From NCBI GenBank assembly GCA_029555415.1, contig JAKPSI010000018.1, positions 310,001-374,000 on the forward strand: a DNA stretch of 64,000 nucleotides, written 5' to 3'. The translations under genes were made by a program, and so were the position numbers. This DNA comes from Bacteroidota bacterium. GTDB lineage: Bacteria > Bacteroidota > Bacteroidia > Chitinophagales > Chitinophagaceae. Below the pieces are notes generated by a model. It did not search any database, had not been told where the DNA came from, and saw only the letters and a program-made list of their open reading frames with translations. This document shows, one piece after another, positions 21,369 to 33,090 of this stretch. The first letter of the stretch is position 1. The number at the start of each line of letters is the position of its first letter.

Positions 21369-24300
21369 TTATAGCTCCTGAAGAGAAAATTGGTCTACCA
21401 CCTCGGTGATCGTCCGGCCCATATTTTCCACCAATTGTTCAAGCCTTTCGGATGGCTGCTGTAATTGCGCGAGCTTTTCTATTTCCCGGACCTCTTTCTG
21501 CAGCGTATGGATCCCAAGGTTGTCGATGCTGGGTTTGATCCGGTGGGCCTCTGCCCTTACCTTTTCGAAATCCCCTTTCTGATAGGAGTTATTTATAGTA
21601 CTGGCGGCCTGGGGTCCCTGTGCGATGAATATCCGCAGCATTTTATTGACGAACTCCTGGCTGCCCCGGCCCACTTCATAGAGTTTTGACAGATCGTAAA
21701 GTTGTTTGGCCTGTACAGTGGGCGCTTTGCGGTTCGAACGGTGCAGCCATTCACTGATCTTTGAGATGAGATCCTTTTCTTCGAAAGGTTTAGCGATAAA
21801 GTCATTCATCCCGACCTTGAAACACCTGTCCCTTTCTCCCTTCAGCGCATTCGCGGTAAGTGCAAGAATGGGAATGTCCTTGCTGATCTGTGTGCGGATC
21901 ATCATCGTTGCTTCCAGACCATTCATGACCGGCATTTGCATATCCATCAGCACCAGGTCAAAATCTTCTTTATGCAGTGCGCGTACGGCCTCTTCCCCGT
22001 TTTCTGCTTCTGTGATATTGGCACCGTAGGGCTCTAAAACGGTAATAGCCACAAGCCTGTTCATTTCATTGTCTTCAGCCAGCAATATCTTTTTCCCTTT
22101 GATGACCGAGCTGTTCAGCACGGTCTGACTTTCCGGGGTAATGACAATTCCGCCTTCTGCGGTTTCCAGCGGAATGAGAACAGAAATGGTGGTTCCCTCA
22201 TTCTTTTTGCTTTCGACCACGATCTCTCCATCCATTAATTCCACTAATTCGCGGATGATCGATAAGCCCAATCCGGAGCCTCCGTATTTGCGGGTAACCG
22301 AACTGTCTTCCTGCATGAACTTGCTGAAGATCTTATCCTTGAAATCTTCATTCATACCGATACCGGAATCAGCTACCGTGAAGCGGATCAATGGCAATCC
22401 GTTCTTTTCGCCTTCCTTCGCACATTGGATCCTGACGAATCCCGATTCCGTGAACTTAATAGCGTTACTCACAAGGTTCAGCAGGATCTGATTCAGCCTG
22501 TGAGGGTCTCCGCACAATACATCCGGAATGTTTTCATCAGCTATTGTGGAGATGGATAGTCCTTTTTCCTCCGCACGGTGCATCATGACCTGGATCGTAC
22601 GTGAAAGCAGGTCCTGTGCCCTGAAGTTGATCTTTTCAAGCTTGAGTTGCCCCGCTTCGATCTTCGAAATATCAAGGATATCATTGATGATCACCATCAG
22701 GTGATCCGCTGCCTTATTGATCGTATCCAGGAAAACATGCTGGCGGTCATTGAGTTCAGTTTTTTGGAGCTGCCGGCTGAGTCCCACGATCGCATTCATT
22801 GGCGTACGGATCTCATGACTCATATTCGCAAGGAACATTTCTTTAGCGCGTGACGACTGCAGCGCTTCTTCCCTTGCCGACAATAACTCTTTTTCAATAT
22901 TCTTCTGACTCGTGATATCCAGATGGATACCGATCGATCCCACCAACTCGCCCTTATCCGTATATCTGGGCGCACCGCTGATGAGCCACCAGCGTTCTTC
23001 ACCCTTCTTATTCTTCACAGATATCTCATATGCTTCTGAAATACCATGTTTCCTTGATTCATTCCTTTTTTCCATCACTTCGATCGTTTCCCCGGAAACG
23101 AAAAGTTCACTTGCAATCTTTCCATACAATTCCTCCGGAAGATAACCACTCATATCACAAAAGCTCTGATTCACGAACTGAATACGGTCTTGCAGATCCA
23201 CTTCCAGCAGACCCAGATTCATGTTTGTTATGATATTCCGGTATTTCTCCTCCCGTATCTGAACGGCCTGTTCGGCTTCTTTTTCCTTGGTGATGTTGGT
23301 GATGATACCGGTAGTATAAAGGGTTTCATCTTCCGTTTGATCGGAAAAAGTGGAAGAGATACTGAGCCAGATCAGGGGCTTGCCGGGGATCAGGAAACGT
23401 CCTTCAAAGTGAAACGGCTTCTTGGTAATGATAGAGAGCTTTGAAAGCGCCCGCTCTCTTTCAATATCATCCGGATGGATGATGCCATAGAAATTTCTAA
23501 GCTCCGCTTCGGTTACGCCGATCTTCTTTTCAGCATCTGCACCGATATATACGAATCCTTCTGAGCCGTCTAGTTTATATTGATATTTATAAATGACCCC
23601 AGGAACACTTTCCGCAAGGCTTCTGAATTTCGATTCTTCTTCGCGCAGGGCTTTTTGCGTTTCCTTTACCTCTGTGATATCTGTTTGCGTACCGATCACC
23701 CTCAGCGGAAGGCCGTCGTCATCCTTCTCAATTACAATGCCGCGGTCAAGTAACCACCGGATACTTCCATCTTTCTTTTGGATCCGGTACTCCATATTGT
23801 GACTGTCGATCAAACCTGCGAGATAAGCTTGCTTGTTCTCTTCCAGTACCCCTTTATCTTCATGATGTATCGCGTCCCACCAGAGTTTTTCCATGTTATC
23901 ATACTCGCTGAAAGGCAAACCCTGGAACTGTGTATTGTCATCATAGAACTTTGTCTTCCCGGTACGGAAGTCGTGTTCCCACACATTATCACCTAACAGC
24001 TGCAGGGTTTTATTTAAACGAAGCTCAGAAACAAGCAGCATTTGCTGAGCTTTCTTTTCGTTGTTGATATTCTCCAGCAGTAAAAAATAACCGGAAACAT
24101 TTCCTTTCGCATTCTTGATCGGCTGGCACTGCATCCTTTGCCATAAAACGGTTCCGTCCTTTTTATAATTCATGACCTCACCCTGGAACGACTCGCCCCA
24201 GGATATCTGATCTGAAAAATTCTGAATGCTGAATCTGTTCGTATCCGGTCCTTTGAATAAATGACTGATGTTGTGTCCAATGGTTTCCTCCGGAGAATAA

Positions 24301-25310
24301 CCCGTCATGAATATGTAACTCTTGTTGACCCATGTGATGCTGGCACTGGCATCCGCAATAACAACCGCGTTGATATTATCTTCAGCAATGCGTGACAGTA
24401 TATTCAACTGGTCTTCCTGTTCTTTCTTTTTAGTGATGTCATCAATTACACTGAAATAAAGGGAAACTTTGCCGTTCTTATCAAAATAAGGCTGGCTATT
24501 GGAGTGACCCCAATACCAGCTGCCATCCTTTCGATAATGAATGATGGAGGTTTCAACCACCTCTCCTTTATAAAAGCCTTTTGCGACCATCTCCATTGCG
24601 TTGGGATCTGAAAGTGGCCCCGCCAACAACTGCAGTGGAGACTTTCCGATCGCTTCATCAGGAGTATAGCCGGTCAGCTGCGTGAACATTTCATTCACCC
24701 ATGTGATCATCCCGTCGTGTCCGGAAAACAAAACCGCATTCTTGTTGGCCCGCGCCATCAGCGAAAGCTTGAACAATTCCTCTTCCGATCTTTTCTTCTC
24801 TGAAATATCACGATGTGTCCCGATCAGTCTGGACGGTTTGCCGCTTGTTGTATAGTTGACGATCTTTCCATTGTCCTGTATCCAAACATAGTGGCCGTCT
24901 TTATGACGAACCCGGTATTCAATTTCATGTTTGACGATGGTATTTTGCCTGTACTTTATGCTGTTCGTTTCAATGATATACCTGTCTTCCGGATGTACTT
25001 TTTCGCACCAAACTTGAAACGGACATGTCAACTCCGGCTCAGACAGGCCAAGCAGGTTCATGAACTCTTTTGAAAGGATCATCAGTCCCGACTCTACATG
25101 AAATTCCCAAACACAATCACCCCGTTCTTCCAATGCGAACATCAGTTTCTCTTCACTGAATAAACCAGAACGGTAAGAAAGCTCAATTTCCTGTTCGAAA
25201 GCCTCATAGGTGTCTTTTACCGAATTGATGAATGCGCTTACCCGGGGGTCCGCCATCAATTCAGGTGTCAGGAACTGCTCAGTTTGTATGTTAAGCCGCT
25301 TTTTGTTCAT
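21369..25310 (-). CDS. Soluble hybrid histidine kinase with six PAS domains, receiver and Hpt
   Basis: A 1313-residue multidomain sensor with no transmembrane segment. Six consecutive PAS/PAC units span about residues 50-815; each ends in a DI(T/S)-type linker such as IGTHRDISEKK, SVIDDITKKK, IGTQTDITEVK and IGIHLDITSQK. A HisKA domain follows (about 820-900, FLANMSHEIRTPMNAIVG with the phospho-acceptor His), then a HATPase domain (about 935-1050, with VSNAIKFTE, DSGIGM, GGSGLGLSI), a receiver (about 1065-1180, LVLMDMQMPVMNG with the acceptor Asp) and an Hpt domain (about 1205-1313, AHRIKPSIDNLG). It carries a full phosphorelay but no output domain, so a separate regulator must exist. A GTG at 25328 is an alternative start. 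Confidence 0.93.
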   Translation of the reverse strand: MNKKRLNIQTEQFLTPELMADPRVSAFINSVKDTYEAFEQEIELSYRSGLFSEEKLMFALEERGDCVWEFHVESGLMILSKEFMNLLGLSEPELTCPFQVWCEKVHPEDRYIIETNSIKYRQNTIVKHEIEYRVRHKDGHYVWIQDNGKIVNYTTSGKPSRLIGTHRDISEKKRSEEELFKLSLMARANKNAVLFSGHDGMITWVNEMFTQLTGYTPDEAIGKSPLQLLAGPLSDPNAMEMVAKGFYKGEVVETSIIHYRKDGSWYWGHSNSQPYFDKNGKVSLYFSVIDDITKKKEQEDQLNILSRIAEDNINAVVIADASASITWVNKSYIFMTGYSPEETIGHNISHLFKGPDTNRFSIQNFSDQISWGESFQGEVMNYKKDGTVLWQRMQCQPIKNAKGNVSGYFLLLENINNEKKAQQMLLVSELRLNKTLQLLGDNVWEHDFRTGKTKFYDDNTQFQGLPFSEYDNMEKLWWDAIHHEDKGVLEENKQAYLAGLIDSHNMEYRIQKKDGSIRWLLDRGIVIEKDDDGLPLRVIGTQTDITEVKETQKALREEESKFRSLAESVPGVIYKYQYKLDGSEGFVYIGADAEKKIGVTEAELRNFYGIIHPDDIERERALSKLSIITKKPFHFEGRFLIPGKPLIWLSISSTFSDQTEDETLYTTGIITNITKEKEAEQAVQIREEKYRNIITNMNLGLLEVDLQDRIQFVNQSFCDMSGYLPEELYGKIASELFVSGETIEVMEKRNESRKHGISEAYEISVKNKKGEERWWLISGAPRYTDKGELVGSIGIHLDITSQKNIEKELLSAREEALQSSRAKEMFLANMSHEIRTPMNAIVGLSRQLQKTELNDRQHVFLDTINKAADHLMVIINDILDISKIEAGQLKLEKINFRAQDLLSRTIQVMMHRAEEKGLSISTIADENIPDVLCGDPHRLNQILLNLVSNAIKFTESGFVRIQCAKEGEKNGLPLIRFTVADSGIGMNEDFKDKIFSKFMQEDSSVTRKYGGSGLGLSIIRELVELMDGEIVVESKKNEGTTISVLIPLETAEGGIVITPESQTVLNSSVIKGKKILLAEDNEMNRLVAITVLEPYGANITEAENGEEAVRALHKEDFDLVLMDMQMPVMNGLEATMMIRTQISKDIPILALTANALKGERDRCFKVGMNDFIAKPFEEKDLISKISEWLHRSNRKAPTVQAKQLYDLSKLYEVGRGSQEFVNKMLRIFIAQGPQAASTINNSYQKGDFEKVRAEAHRIKPSIDNLGIHTLQKEVREIEKLAQLQQPSERLEQLVENMGRTITEVVDQFSLQEL

Positions 25311-25591
25311 TTTTCCGGTGCCTGTCACATTCTATTATAGTGCCATTATATAAACGATTGATTTTCTTGACATTGAGAAGTCGGTTTTACCTGAATTTTC
25401 CGTTTTTTGGAAGCCGCTTCCCGTTTAGAGCCTGCCTTATTTCCCGGGGTGGTTTCTGAAAAAAGCCGCTGTATTTGGATTGGGCCGGATCATCGGGCCA
25501 ATTTGCCGGATTGAAGTGGCAAAAAAATCGGGTGAATTTGATGATTTTTATAAAAAACACCCTGCCTGTAAAACAGAGAAAAATGGCGTTT
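25311..25591. other. Non-coding AT-rich region upstream of the hybrid kinase
   Basis: No convincing gene is present. On the minus strand the first 40 bases upstream of the kinase contain TATAATAG- and TATATAATG-like sequences that could serve as a promoter. Further on there are T-runs and a GGGTGAATTTGATGATTTTT phrase at 25530-25549 whose near copy (GGGTGCTTTTTGATGATTTT) sits at 25615-25634, inside the end of the neighbouring gene. Confidence 0.35.
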
Positions 25592-28963: not shown

Positions 28964-29473
28964 ATGGATTCGCTTACTACCCCGGGTTACCGTCTTATCA
29001 GCGATCATGATACCGCTCAGGTCAGACAGAACATCAGTAACGATCAGAATGCATTGTTCACTATGCGTGCGTATCAGGCCGGTGATGCCATTGCTGATTT
29101 TTCCGCGGGTACGATCTCATCCACTCCAACTTATCTCACTGTTCAGATCAGCGAAGAAAAACATATTACCCTTCAACCGGATTTCCTTCAATATATCAAT
29201 CACAGCTGCGAACCAAACGTGTTCTTTGATACGACGCTGATGAAGCTTGTGGCACTGAAGTATATCCCTGAAAATACGGAGCTGACCTTTTTCTATCCCT
29301 CCACGGAATGGAAGATGGATCAGCCCTTTCATTGTTATTGCGGGAACGAAGGCTGCCTTGGTCAGATCCGTGGCGCGGCCTATTTGAATACAGAGTCCAT
29401 TAAACATTATCGCTTTACCGACTTCATACAACAACAGATCAATAAACACGCGGATAAACAAGAAAGGGCCTGA
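28964..29473 (+). CDS. SET-domain (putative lysine methyltransferase) protein
   Basis: A 169-residue stand-alone SET protein. It has the substrate/SAM-site motif YINHSCEPNVFF near residue 83, ELTFFYPSTEW near 108 (the catalytic-Tyr strand, in the FxYPSTEW form common in bacteria), and a post-SET Cys motif CYCGNEGCLGQIRG near 124. The usual N-terminal GxG turn is not obvious (RAYQAGDAIADF instead). SET enzymes transfer methyl groups from SAM to lysine side chains. It is the first gene of the cassette and ends four bases before the ATP-grasp gene, so the two are surely co-transcribed. The substrate is unknown; the co-encoded ligases or their product are candidates. Confidence 0.85.
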   Translation: MDSLTTPGYRLISDHDTAQVRQNISNDQNALFTMRAYQAGDAIADFSAGTISSTPTYLTVQISEEKHITLQPDFLQYINHSCEPNVFFDTTLMKLVALKYIPENTELTFFYPSTEWKMDQPFHCYCGNEGCLGQIRGAAYLNTESIKHYRFTDFIQQQINKHADKQERA

Positions 29474-29477
29474 TCAC

Positions 29478-30635
29478 ATGAAACCTGATGCTGACATTTT
29501 CCTGAAACCCTATAAGATCTGGGTTCTGGCACCCCACCTGGAATCGGACGACCCGAACATCCAGCACTACTACGATTTTACTCAAAGTATCGCCGAGTAC
29601 ACAAAGGTGTTCCTGGAACTGGATGCTGACTGGACCTGGCAGCCCGTGACCATGAATAATTTCAGGGAAGTGATCGCGAAGATCGCCGGAGAAGACAGCG
29701 GTAAAACCCCGTTGATCCTGAATCTCTGCGATGGGGATGAAGTGAATGGCACACCGGGTGTTTCTGTGATCAGAGAACTGAACAAACATCATCTCATTTA
29801 TACCGGCTCCGACGAACATTTCTATAACGTCACTACTTCGAAGATCCCGATGAAGAAGGCATTCGATAAAGCCGGTGTCCCCACAGCAGCATGGCGTGTG
29901 ATCAATGGAAGCAAAGGCTCAACCCGTGGTATCTGTAAACGCGTGGGTACGCCGTTACTCATCAAACCCGCTGTTTCAGGCGGAAGCATGGGTGTTTCTG
30001 TGAAAAACGTCGTGAATACAGAAGAAGAACTGGTTAAACGGGTAGAAGAGATACATACCGGCTATCATGGCTGGAACCTGCTGGCCGACGGCCTTTTTGT
30101 GGAACAATTCATCACCGGGCCCGAGTTCACCACCTTCATTACCGGATCATCCGATGCGCCCGAACATTGCATCGTTTACGAACCGGTTGAACGCGTTTTC
30201 CATGCCTCGCTTCCGGAAACAGAAAAATTCCTGTCATTCGACCGGCTCTGGGAGATCTATGATGATGAAAAGCCCATGCCCGGCAATGAGAATTTTTATG
30301 AGTACCAGGCGGTAACCCCCTCGCTGGTACCCGTACTCAAGAAACTCACCCTCGAAGCCTATAAAGCATGCGGCGGTAAGGGCTATTCCCGTATCGATAT
30401 CCGGATGGATACCGCAACCGGACGCTTTTATCTTTTAGAAGCCAACGCCCAATGCGGATTAAGTGAAGACGAGAATTACACTTCGATCGGTGCCATTCTG
30501 AAAGTTTCCAAAGTAAGTTATACATCCGTCATAGTTGAGATCTTAAAAGATGCTATCCGCCGGGGACACAACCGGATCAGGAAGGTCAGAAAGCCTGTAG
30601 CAAAAAAGGTTGCGAAATCCGCTGCCATTAAATGA
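29478..30635 (+). CDS. ATP-grasp ligase (D-Ala-D-Ala-ligase-like) with a basic C-terminal tail
   Basis: A 385-residue ATP-grasp enzyme. Residues 1-110 form the pre-ATP-grasp domain. The central ATP-binding lobe has LLIKPAVSGGSMGVS near residue 155 and VEQFITGPEFTTF near 208, and the Mg/ATP site is YSRIDIRMDTATGRFYLLEANAQCG near 300. These are the D-Ala-D-Ala ligase-like signatures, so it should join a carboxylate to an amine via an acyl phosphate. The last 23 residues (RRGHNRIRKVRKPVAKKVAK...) are strongly Lys/Arg-rich and outside the fold. The gene lies between a SET gene and an ATP-grasp-SET fusion. It is unlikely to be the cell-wall Ddl given this context, but its substrates are unknown. 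Confidence 0.85.
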   Translation: MKPDADIFLKPYKIWVLAPHLESDDPNIQHYYDFTQSIAEYTKVFLELDADWTWQPVTMNNFREVIAKIAGEDSGKTPLILNLCDGDEVNGTPGVSVIRELNKHHLIYTGSDEHFYNVTTSKIPMKKAFDKAGVPTAAWRVINGSKGSTRGICKRVGTPLLIKPAVSGGSMGVSVKNVVNTEEELVKRVEEIHTGYHGWNLLADGLFVEQFITGPEFTTFITGSSDAPEHCIVYEPVERVFHASLPETEKFLSFDRLWEIYDDEKPMPGNENFYEYQAVTPSLVPVLKKLTLEAYKACGGKGYSRIDIRMDTATGRFYLLEANAQCGLSEDENYTSIGAILKVSKVSYTSVIVEILKDAIRRGHNRIRKVRKPVAKKVAKSAAIK

Positions 30636-30679
30636 TCAACCTGACCGTTGTAATCATCCAGTAATTACCTTAGCGATTC

Positions 30680-32107
30680 ATGAAAGTCTGTGTTCTTCAA
30701 CCCGACTACTCCACGACCGGAGTAGATTATAAAAATTATGATCCTCCTCGTGAGCTTGCTCCCCTGATCCCGGAAGCAAGTGTTGATACCGTCTTTCTGA
30801 ACAAACTCACCACCTACAAACAACTGCGTGAACTCGGCAAGCAGGGCTACGATATTTTCGTCAACCTCTGTGAAGGATATCTGGAATGGGAAGTCCCGTC
30901 GATCGATGTCATCTTCACTTTGGAGTTACTGAATCTTCCCTTTACCGGTCCGAGCACTAAACTTTACGATCCGCCAAAAGAGCTGATGAAATACCTCGCC
31001 TATTGCGAAGGCGTTGGTACACCTGGTTATGCACTGGTGAATTCGGCAGACGATATTGATGCGGCACTGCAGCATCTGCGTTTCCCTTTATTTGTAAAAC
31101 CCGCCAAAGCCGGCGACAGCCTGGGTGTGGACGAACACTCGCTGGTCAACAGCAGAGAAGAACTGCAGGCAAAAGTGGCTCAGATCATTGATGAATACGG
31201 GCCCCTGCTCGTTGAAGAATATATCGCCGGCCGAGAATTCACTGTGCTGGTTGCAGCTAACCCTGATGGACAAAGCTGTACCGTTTTCAGACCCGTTGAA
31301 TATCTCTTTCCGGAAGGAAGGGCTTTCAAGACCTATGCCCTGAAAACATCTGAACTGCACCCCGATTGTAATGTGCCCTGCACGGACCCGGACCTGGATA
31401 AAAGATTGCGCGCCGCAACCGAAAAGATCTTCCTTGGCTTTAAAGGGGTGGGTTATGCGCGTCTCGATTTCCGTGTCAACGAAAAGAACGAGATCTATTT
31501 TCTGGAGATCAATTTTACCTGCTCCGTTTTCTATAAAGATGGTTACGAAGGATCCGCTGATTTTGTACTGAAATATGATGGCATCGGACAAGCCGGTTTC
31601 CTGCGTCATATGATCGCGGAAGGGATCGGCCGTCACGCACGCAAAATGAAACCTTTCTATATGAAAGGAAATGCCATCGCCGGTTATGGAATTTATGCCG
31701 CCCGTGATATTAAAGAGGGTGAGATCGTTTTCCAGGGGGAAGAAATGGCACAACGTATCGTAACGAAACGCTATGTGGACCAACACTGGAATGAGGACGA
31801 AAAAATGCATTTCCGGCGCTACGCCTACCCGGTCAGCGAGGAATTATTCATCCTTTGGGATGAGGATCCTTCTGAATGGGCCCCCCAAAATCATAGTTGC
31901 GACCCCAATACCGCTTTTGAAGGCCTGAATGTGCTGGCCCTCCGCCCGATCCGTAAAAACGAGGAATTAACCCTTGATTACGCTCATTTTCTGGATGAAA
32001 ACATGGAACCTTTCCAGTGCCGCTGCGGTACCGCTGCCTGCCGGGGCCTGGTAAACGGCACCCCGGGAAATTCTCTTACGGTCCGGGAACAAAAGGCAGG
32101 CAGTTAA
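30680..32107 (+). CDS. ATP-grasp-SET fusion protein
   Basis: A 475-residue two-domain protein. Residues 1-315 form a second D-Ala-D-Ala-ligase-like ATP-grasp: LFVKPAKAGDSLGVD near residue 138, LLVEEYIAGREFTV near 175, YARLDFRVNEKNEIYFLEINFTCS near 259. Residues about 325-465 form a full SET domain: GYGIYAARDIKEGE near 337 (SAM-binding GxG), QNHSCDPNT near 405, ELTLDYAHF near 430, post-SET CRCGTAACRG near 447. One chain thus combines an amide-forming ligase with a methyltransferase. ATG 30680 follows a near -7 element (TACCTTAG) by six bases. The 44-base gap to the previous gene would still allow one transcript. Confidence 0.87.
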   Translation: MKVCVLQPDYSTTGVDYKNYDPPRELAPLIPEASVDTVFLNKLTTYKQLRELGKQGYDIFVNLCEGYLEWEVPSIDVIFTLELLNLPFTGPSTKLYDPPKELMKYLAYCEGVGTPGYALVNSADDIDAALQHLRFPLFVKPAKAGDSLGVDEHSLVNSREELQAKVAQIIDEYGPLLVEEYIAGREFTVLVAANPDGQSCTVFRPVEYLFPEGRAFKTYALKTSELHPDCNVPCTDPDLDKRLRAATEKIFLGFKGVGYARLDFRVNEKNEIYFLEINFTCSVFYKDGYEGSADFVLKYDGIGQAGFLRHMIAEGIGRHARKMKPFYMKGNAIAGYGIYAARDIKEGEIVFQGEEMAQRIVTKRYVDQHWNEDEKMHFRRYAYPVSEELFILWDEDPSEWAPQNHSCDPNTAFEGLNVLALRPIRKNEELTLDYAHFLDENMEPFQCRCGTAACRGLVNGTPGNSLTVREQKAGS

Positions 32108-32199
32108 ACTTCTGCAGTTCCAAACTGTCTATATTTACAACCCCCGTTAATTCTGCCGTCGCTATCCGGCCCCTGAACGATCATCTCAAAAAGTGCAGA

Positions 32200-33090
32200 A
32201 TGTCACGTTTTACTATATTAAGAAAAATCATCATGCAACATCGGAAACAGTTGGTGTATACCTACCTGCTGTTTTCGCTGGAAATGCTGGGAAACCTGCT
32301 TCGCCCCTTTTTTCTGGGGCTGGCGGTGAACGACCTGCTAAAAGGCAGTTATGAAGGTTTGATCATTTTGACGGGGGTCCACTTTTCCTGGCTGGTGATC
32401 GGAACGATCCGCCACCGCTTTGATACCCGTACTTATTCCGCTATCTATTCCGCATTGGCCACCCGTTTTTTATCCAGGCGTTTCAACCGGGCCAATGTTT
32501 CACGACTCAGCGCACACTCCACACTTGCCCGTGAATTCGTCGACTTTCTTGAATACGATCTCATTTATGTGATCGAAGCCGTTTACAATCTCGTGGGCTC
32601 GCTGATCCTTCTTATGTTTTACGACAAATCCGTTGTACTGGTTTGCCTCGGCATATTATTACCTGTTATGGCGATCAGTTATTTCTATGGCCGGAAAATG
32701 AAACAGCTGAACAGGATGAAGAATGATGAACTGGAAAAACAGGTCGATATCATTTCAACGGGCAACCATCATCTGATCCGTCAACACTATAATAACCTCA
32801 GAAAATGGCAGATCCGCATCAGTGATCAGGAAGCGTGGAATTTCGGTTTGATGGAACTGATGGTGATCGTCGTGATCGGTGTTTCTTTACTGATCACCAA
32901 TAAAACAACGGGAGCAACGATCCAAGCAGGAAGTCTGATCGGTATATACAGTTATATCCAGCGATTCGTTTCCGGTATGGATACGATACCTTATACCGTT
33001 CAGCGGATGAGTTCATTGAATGACATTACAAGGAGGATCGAATTTGAGCAGGAAGACTTGTCTGGCGCGGCTTTGCAGGAAGTAGCCTGA
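32200..33090 (+). CDS. ABC-exporter six-helix membrane domain without ATPase domain
   Basis: A 296-residue protein with about five to six transmembrane helices arranged as in an ABC exporter transmembrane domain. Helices run near residues 22-40 (YTYLLFSLEMLGNLLRPFF), 45-65, 120-138 (YNLVGSLILLMFY), 145-160 and 225-245, with a long charged coupling region around 165-220. There is no Walker A, signature or Walker B; the protein stops where the nucleotide-binding domain would begin. ATG 32200 is chosen because the longer open frame runs back over the previous gene. It lies 92 bases after the fusion gene and converges on mnmG. It may pair with an ATPase encoded elsewhere and export the product of the upstream enzymes. 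Confidence 0.75.
   Translation: MSRFTILRKIIMQHRKQLVYTYLLFSLEMLGNLLRPFFLGLAVNDLLKGSYEGLIILTGVHFSWLVIGTIRHRFDTRTYSAIYSALATRFLSRRFNRANVSRLSAHSTLAREFVDFLEYDLIYVIEAVYNLVGSLILLMFYDKSVVLVCLGILLPVMAISYFYGRKMKQLNRMKNDELEKQVDIISTGNHHLIRQHYNNLRKWQIRISDQEAWNFGLMELMVIVVIGVSLLITNKTTGATIQAGSLIGIYSYIQRFVSGMDTIPYTVQRMSSLNDITRRIEFEQEDLSGAALQEVA

Follow-up and report, generated by a model that had tools for sequence, protein, structure and literature searches.

SET-domain methyltransferases beside and within Ddl-like ATP-grasp ligases in a Chitinophagaceae operon: a possible route to methylated, amide-linked small molecules

Protein-lysine methylation is almost the only function known for SET domains, BurB being a recent exception, and ATP-grasp enzymes form amide bonds via acyl phosphates. 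BurB, the SET-domain methionine S-methyltransferase of dimethylsulfoniopropionate synthesis, converts free methionine into S-methylmethionine by methylation at sulfur (PDB 9l4t and 9l4v; PMC12542666, PMC7496086). The protein TTLL12 comprises an N-terminal SET-like domain and a tubulin-tyrosine-ligase (TTL)-type ligase, and is reported to be without the critical residues of both domains (PMC3520985). Graspetide loci place ATP-grasp ligases with ATP-binding cassette (ABC) transporters and methyltransferases (PMC8939145). Here we describe an operon that brings SET and ATP-grasp enzymes together. It lies in a window of 64,000 nt of the Chitinophagaceae contig JAKPSI010000018.1 (GCA_029555415.1, positions 310,001 to 374,000), and encodes a stand-alone SET methyltransferase (SETa), an ATP-grasp ligase resembling D-Ala-D-Ala ligase (Ddl) (GRASPa), a fusion protein of ATP-grasp ligase and SET domain (GRASP_SET) and an ABC-exporter-type membrane domain (ABCm). 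SETa, GRASPa and GRASP_SET are a real system, with ABCm as an optional partner. The best explanation is that this trio forms the core of a three-enzyme pathway to a methylated, amide-linked small molecule, with odds that we regard as evenly balanced.

The trio is accepted as a system because its members occupy the same genomes of the family, because SETa and GRASPa are found naturally fused, and because SETa and the fusion recur in green-sulfur-type genomes. The family survey covered 98 genomes, with profile E limits of 1e-40 for GRASP_SET, 1e-60 for GRASPa and 1e-10 for SETa. Each protein was found in 33 of these, and comparison of the lists shows that the 33 genomes are identical. GRASPa and GRASP_SET lie on a single contig in all 33 carriers. 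The ends of their matches are no more than 190 bases apart in 31 carriers, and the remaining two show separations of 525 and 1064 bases. SETa is located near the ligase pair in 30 carriers, and is present but unlinked in genomes G020, G459 and G497.

ABCm occurs as a stand-alone protein in 13 of the 98 genomes. All 13 are among the 33 trio carriers (Fisher p = 1e-7, which is only indicative as the genomes are related), and all 65 non-carriers lack it; the four genes are thus found together in 13 of the 98. In nine further genomes there are weak matches of 20-37 bits, which fall within frames 590-631 residues long. We give little likelihood to ABCm being a chance neighbour outside the system. 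Its absence from 20 of the 33 carriers would fit that explanation, as would genome G450, in which ABCm and the trio are on different contigs, but every stand-alone copy resides in a trio carrier, and the gene is also seen in 39 of the 80 loci discussed below (three of these copies being cut at the contig end). The genes around the unlinked SETa copies, the ABCm of G450 and the fusion of G546 (see below) gave no hint, on inspection by eye.

The preliminary description of the window had proposed that the four genes constitute a single system, which either exports a methylated product or modifies a protein, an idea that rare co-occurrence in relatives would count against. The single system survives for the three enzymes, whose co-occurrence in the same 33 of 98 genomes is the reverse of rare; the objection half applies to ABCm, found in only 13 of those 33. 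Export is accordingly not a fixed part of the system, although a complete ABC exporter is present in the related green-sulfur-type operon.

The operon itself spans 28964-33090 of the window, and consists of four genes on the + strand with intergenic gaps of 4, 44 and 92 bases. Its features are collected in the Table. Calling of open reading frames (ORFs) together with Pfam matches bore out the gene composition and spacing first described, and the lack of an ATPase in ABCm, which has no ABC_tran match. The Pfam scores of all four proteins are above the curated cut-offs. The start of ABCm has been taken at the ATG at 32200; the mechanical ORF begins at a GTG at 32017.

Table. Features of the SET and ATP-grasp operon, in coordinates of the window.
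Feature	Position	Strand	Remarks
SETa, compact stand-alone BurB-like SET methyltransferase with post-SET cysteines	28964..29473	+	169 aa; Pfam SET 34.5 bits
GRASPa, D-Ala-D-Ala-ligase-like ATP-grasp amide ligase, not Ddl	29478..30635	+	385 aa; Pfam Dala_Dala_lig_C 58.9 bits
GRASP_SET, fusion of ATP-grasp ligase and C-terminal SET domain	30680..32107	+	475 aa; Dala_Dala_lig_C 75.1 and SET 45.8 bits in one chain
GRASP_SET, ATP-grasp catalytic core, residues 126-278	31055..31513	+	Pfam Dala_Dala_lig_C
GRASP_SET, SET domain, residues 335-434	31682..31981	+	Pfam; N404, H405, C407 and Y434 invariant in 10 diverse sequences
GRASP_SET, post-SET cysteines C447, C449 and C454	32018..32041	+	Invariant in 57 sequences and likewise in a diverse set of 10
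ABCm, membrane domain of ABC-exporter type lacking an ATPase; optional partner	32200..33090	+	296 aa; ABC_membrane_3 PF13748 161.9 bits

A pattern scan of GTDB genome contigs gave 339 confirmed relatives of the fusion, the patterns being such that distant members would be missed. The best 80 form the set of named loci; among these, the closest relatives of the window fusion protein are from Chitinophagaceae metagenome-assembled genomes (MAGs). Two cultured Terrimonas isolates (L057 and L059) carry the trio, with no ABCm adjoining it. GRASPa is present in 78 of the 80, L036 being cut by the contig end and L043 lacking the gene. SETa adjoins the ligase pair in 65 loci; of the other 15, eight are cut by a contig end and seven are without it in the stretch examined. 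The 65 include L047, in which SETa and GRASPa are fused into one protein of 556 residues, and this fusion counts in favour of a common pathway. After removal of sequences that contained X, lacked a stop, started at a contig edge or were over-long, there remained 78 of 80 fusions, 72 of 78 GRASPa sequences and, for SETa as a separate protein, all 62 of 62. From these 56, 46 and 62 respectively were aligned, each with the sequence from the window. Three contigs of MAG KLAP41 (L036, L037 and L038) each carry a fusion gene, so that either the bin mixes more than one strain or the gene is present in more than one copy. At L043 (1-8000) the fusion gene is accompanied by ABCm, with neither GRASPa nor SETa in the 8 kb upstream, an exception among the 80 loci.

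The other surveys of family, phylum and class lie within the Bacteroidota in the GTDB sense, where the distribution is patchy: the carriers number 10 of 59 relatives (counting the genome of the window), 17 of 395 genomes in the phylum, 8 of 81 in the green-sulfur-type class and, in another class, 3 of 146. A fusion ~40% identical to that of the window is encoded by nine genomes that belong to a single genus. BchD and BchI genes lie beside the one locus checked (L124), which suggests that the genus belongs to the green sulfur bacteria. SETa is present in all nine (as a partial match in G391), and a small second SET gene in eight, the contig of G198 ending before it. A complete ABC exporter is seen in six, on the basis of PF00664 and PF00005 matches in L124, tblastn for L157 and L158, and the first residues of the frame in L122, L123 and L127; the other three are cut by a contig end or were not inspected. 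No homology was seen between this exporter and ABCm (hhalign probability 0.2%), a result that does not exclude it. The second SET gene (L124:5812-6174 and its counterparts) encodes 120 residues, follows the complete exporter and forms its own group in the tree described next.

The tree was constructed from 28 chosen SET domains, comprising seven SETa, three green-sulfur-type SETa, three small SET proteins, nine fused SET domains and six of nine plasmid-encoded SET proteins. SETa sequences of both lineages fall into one group (support 99/96), and the fused SET domains into another (100/99). These groups, with the shared occurrence of the genes, indicate that SETa has kept company with the fusion across a wide evolutionary span. 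The recurrence of both in the green-sulfur-type genomes, where a second SET gene and a complete ABC exporter accompany them, is counted for the pathway. In G265, of another family, SETa adjoins GRASPa on one contig and the fusion is on a second.

The two ligases are considered next. Both GRASPa and the ligase part of the fusion align with Ddl structures, and their solved relatives are of the Ddl, Van, BacD and glycinamide-ribonucleotide-synthetase types (in the best 60 of 90 matches of one search and all 35 of the other). All of these enzymes act on small molecules, and this is one reason for reading the trio as a small-molecule pathway. A model of GRASP_SET (mean predicted local distance difference test (pLDDT) score 88.8) adopts the ATP-grasp fold, and Ddl structures rank first by fold. 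The ATP and metal positions are the same as in Ddl and Van ligases. They are K140, E180, R261, D263, E276 and N278 in GRASP_SET, invariant in 10 diverse fusions, and K163, E209, R305, D307, E321 and N323 in GRASPa, invariant in 47 sequences; we take the catalytic roles of the Lys, Glu, Arg-x-Asp and Glu-x-Asn positions to be those assigned in work on Ddl. Resemblance to Ddl and Van does not extend to the scores or to the acceptor site. The best NCBIfam scores are 84 bits against a Ddl cut-off of 243 for GRASPa, and 83.9 against 245.65 for GRASP_SET, and both ligases fall far short of the cut-off of every Ddl or Van model among the matches listed (the best 25 of 45 and 25 of 46). The acceptor-site stretch is N-x-x-C in both, compared with N-x-x-P-G in Ddl. 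Since the catalytic residues are kept, the Ddl cut-offs are missed and the acceptor site differs, GRASPa and GRASP_SET should be active amide ligases, with a substrate other than that of Ddl.

These comparisons bear on a cell-wall function, in which the ligases would form an alternative peptidoglycan dipeptide that is adjusted by methylation. Among the solved relatives of the two ligase parts, Ddl and Van ligases are indeed in the majority. However, the low scores speak against such a role, the genome has its own Ddl on another contig (328.4 bits, over the cut-off of 310), and there is no cell-wall ligase or racemase among the 20 recurring neighbour families scanned. We attach very little likelihood to it.

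The stand-alone SETa is closest to BurB both in sequence and in fold. BurB is its best solved relative in a profile search (E = 9.2e-17, the next being 4e-8), and the model of SETa (pLDDT 91.9) finds BurB first by Foldseek (E = 4.2e-10, next family 1.3e-6). Superposition by VIA aligns 129 residues with Z = 14.4 and a root-mean-square deviation of 3.4; the next family has Z = 11.2. BurB is likewise a small stand-alone bacterial SET enzyme, and shares with SETa the T-x-Q-x5-H and Y-x-S-T-E stretches and the post-SET cysteines. As this nearest relative acts on free methionine, it provides the second reason for the small-molecule reading. The two enzymes differ at the NHSC motif of SETa, which is LHSC in BurB and LHSC, AHAC or THGC in its close kin, and in their surroundings: the partners of SETa are ATP-grasp ligases, and no S-methylmethionine decarboxylase, transaminase or dehydrogenase of the BurB pathway was found in the Pfam matches of 20 representatives of recurring neighbours (three were matchless, and rarer neighbours were not scanned).

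The SET motifs, which we take to be GxG, NHSC and the catalytic Tyr, are differently preserved in the two proteins. SETa has QxA or similar at the start of the domain where GxG would stand, with NHSC and Tyr111 present. The SET domain of the window fusion has GYG, NHSC and the catalytic Tyr, although the first G is not kept in all distant fusions. The residue two places before the catalytic Tyr is Leu432 in the window fusion; three distant fusions have Ile, Val or Met there, BurB has Met122 and SETa has Phe109; an aromatic residue at this position is presumably a mark of protein-lysine SET enzymes (the F/Y switch rule). The lysine acceptor first proposed for the locus is unsupported in that form, given that SETa is nearest to BurB and is without the GxG form. 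The sequences do not appear to favour lysine as a substrate over methionine or another amine.

In the proposed pathway SETa would use S-adenosylmethionine (SAM) to methylate a building block, either an amino acid or an amine. GRASPa would convert a carboxylate with ATP into an acyl phosphate, and then join it to an amine. GRASP_SET would form a second amide bond, while its own SET domain methylated the growing product. The product probably remains as an intracellular metabolite in most carriers, and would be moved by the ABC-type partner where that is present. The small-molecule nature of the substrate, the order of the steps and the transport are what we infer.

Several observations weigh against this pathway. 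SETa retains the Asn that BurB lacks, and lies outside the BurB-like clade, in its own group (99/96) as opposed to that of the Eleftheria, Rhizobium and Sphingomonas enzymes (96/96; BurB itself is absent from the tree, with the bur-like Eleftheria enzyme as its stand-in); therefore methionine cannot be transferred from BurB as the substrate. When a single sequence of the fused SET domain is compared with solved structures, MLL-type histone SET domains come first (9.9e-8) with BurB following closely (3.3e-7), so that the domain resembles the two to much the same degree, and because of the histone-type match and the canonical motifs a protein lysine is a possible acceptor for the fused domain. 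At E 1e-10 the green-sulfur-type genomes have no GRASPa besides the fusion itself. The fusion stands without GRASPa or SETa in the entire genomes of G264 and G389, and within the 18 kb read in G546. Distance correlations within the trio are about equal to those with the neighbouring mnmG, and lend no support to a special link; and ABCm is missing from the 20 carriers noted above. Among plasmid-borne SET genes, that of Sphingomonas adjoins a gene for a diaminopimelate-type pyridoxal phosphate (PLP) decarboxylase but has signalling genes around it too, and the Deinococcus and Streptomyces neighbourhoods (two of the six read) gave no hint. On the other side, SETa-like genes are carried by nine plasmid records, and four of the six neighbourhoods read adjoin small-molecule genes, which is counted for the pathway; one of these lies in a bur-like polyketide synthase cluster with an aminotransferase and an aldehyde dehydrogenase, and the other three are that of Sphingomonas and those of L138 and L143, described below.

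The properties of the fused SET domain would suit protein or peptide tagging, in which a protein would receive amino acids from the ligases, in the manner of RimK or TTL, and the SET domains would methylate a lysine of that protein or of the tag. We consider this main rival unlikely, though it is to be taken seriously. TTLL12 provides a formal parallel, as a eukaryotic protein that joins a SET-like domain to an ATP-grasp-type, ATP-dependent amino-acid ligase domain (PMC3520985), and in one distant carrier the fusion adjoins genes for a MATCAP-type peptidase, a glutathione-synthetase-like ligase and an N-formylglutamate amidohydrolase. The bacterial fusion differs from TTLL12 in being Ddl-like, in the C-terminal location of its SET domain and in the conservation of its catalytic residues. 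The only Pfam matches of its ligase part are Ddl-type and general ATP-grasp, with no TTL or RimK match at E 0.1, and the known members of the Ddl type give small products. Moreover no fifth gene is constant across the 80 loci, and SETa is closest to a small-molecule enzyme. At the locus of that distant carrier (L120:3041-8792, genome G264) the genes for the amidohydrolase, the MATCAP/QEGLA peptidase and the glutathione-synthetase-like ligase form a run on the strand of the fusion, 441 bases downstream of it; this is possibly another peptide-type cluster.

A ribosomal peptide pathway of the graspetide kind, with an unlinked precursor, has scarcely any likelihood. Graspetide loci commonly combine ATP-grasp ligases and an ABC transporter (PMC8939145), the partners named there being O-methyltransferases or radical SAM enzymes in place of SET. 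No conserved precursor peptide was found beside the operon in the 80 loci, a result counted for the small-molecule pathway though fast-evolving precursors could escape. Small frames recur beside the operon in 17 of the 80 loci at most; of 46 groups of small frames in at least five loci, 43 overlap larger frames, and the three that mostly do not are found in eight, seven and seven loci. There is no graspetide model among the family matches listed, the ligases are of the Ddl type, and ABCm has no peptidase or ATPase match.

Searches of the open literature on ATP-grasp and SET domains found no such system, and the pairing that they gave is TTLL12; a survey of amidoligases published by Iyer and co-workers in 2009 could mention such neighbourhoods. 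The enzyme families, and the logic of ligase, methyltransferase and exporter, are already known. That SET enzymes should work alongside Ddl-type ligases, and be built into one, has not been described as far as the open literature searched reaches. From the co-occurrence of the trio one may suspect an undescribed pathway in which molecules resembling amino acids are joined and methylated. SET enzymes that serve amide ligases, and are fused to them, would widen the roles of SET in bacteria and indicate an undescribed metabolite or modification. A bolder reading, whose chances we put somewhat short of even, is that the trio is the first pathway to pair and fuse SET methyltransferases with ATP-grasp amide ligases, both acting on small peptides and free amino acids. 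Its products in the Bacteroidota and the green-sulfur-type bacteria would be a new class of peptides, either N-methylated or bearing a methyl-sulfonium group. If true, SET enzymes would be a general tailoring family in bacterial small-molecule synthesis, beyond protein-lysine methylation.

Two other origins were considered and rejected. A role in anti-phage defence found no PADLOC match at 0.01. An origin from phages or plasmids found no backing either: viral contigs gave no confirmed relative of the fusion and plasmids none at all (E limits 1e-20 and 1e-12), and no SETa relative was found in viral contigs. Nine phage records match 31-52% of the fusion query, within the ligase part, two of them annotated ddlB, and PHROGs gave a weak ABC match for ABCm only. 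On plasmid p7 of Rhizobium bangladeshense (L138) a BurB-like SET gene, annotated as hypothetical, is located between genes for asparagine synthase and S-adenosylmethionine decarboxylase. On a conjugative plasmid of Tabrizicola piscis (L143) a SET gene lies in a run with a GHMP kinase, a PLP enzyme, a DMT transporter and an alanine racemase.

The operon is flanked by a helicase-like gene, a homologue of which is PIF1-like by Pfam, and by mnmG, which is next after ABCm on the opposite strand. No fifth gene was found to accompany the trio throughout the 80 loci. The next commonest neighbours occur in at most 32, and are mostly those that also flank the window operon. The 20 representatives of recurring neighbour clusters belong to ordinary and varied Pfam families, apart from the three without a match, and include PIF1 and RecQ helicases, SSB, FeoA, FeoB, YbeY, a chromate transporter, M20 peptidase, PfkB and indigoidine-A-type enzymes. 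Four loci without SETa nearby (L082, L083, L085 and L089) have a common downstream run starting with a gene of 89 aa, read as local synteny. Elsewhere in the window, a frame of 1319 aa on the minus strand (21369-25328) has by eye the appearance of a multi-PAS hybrid histidine kinase.

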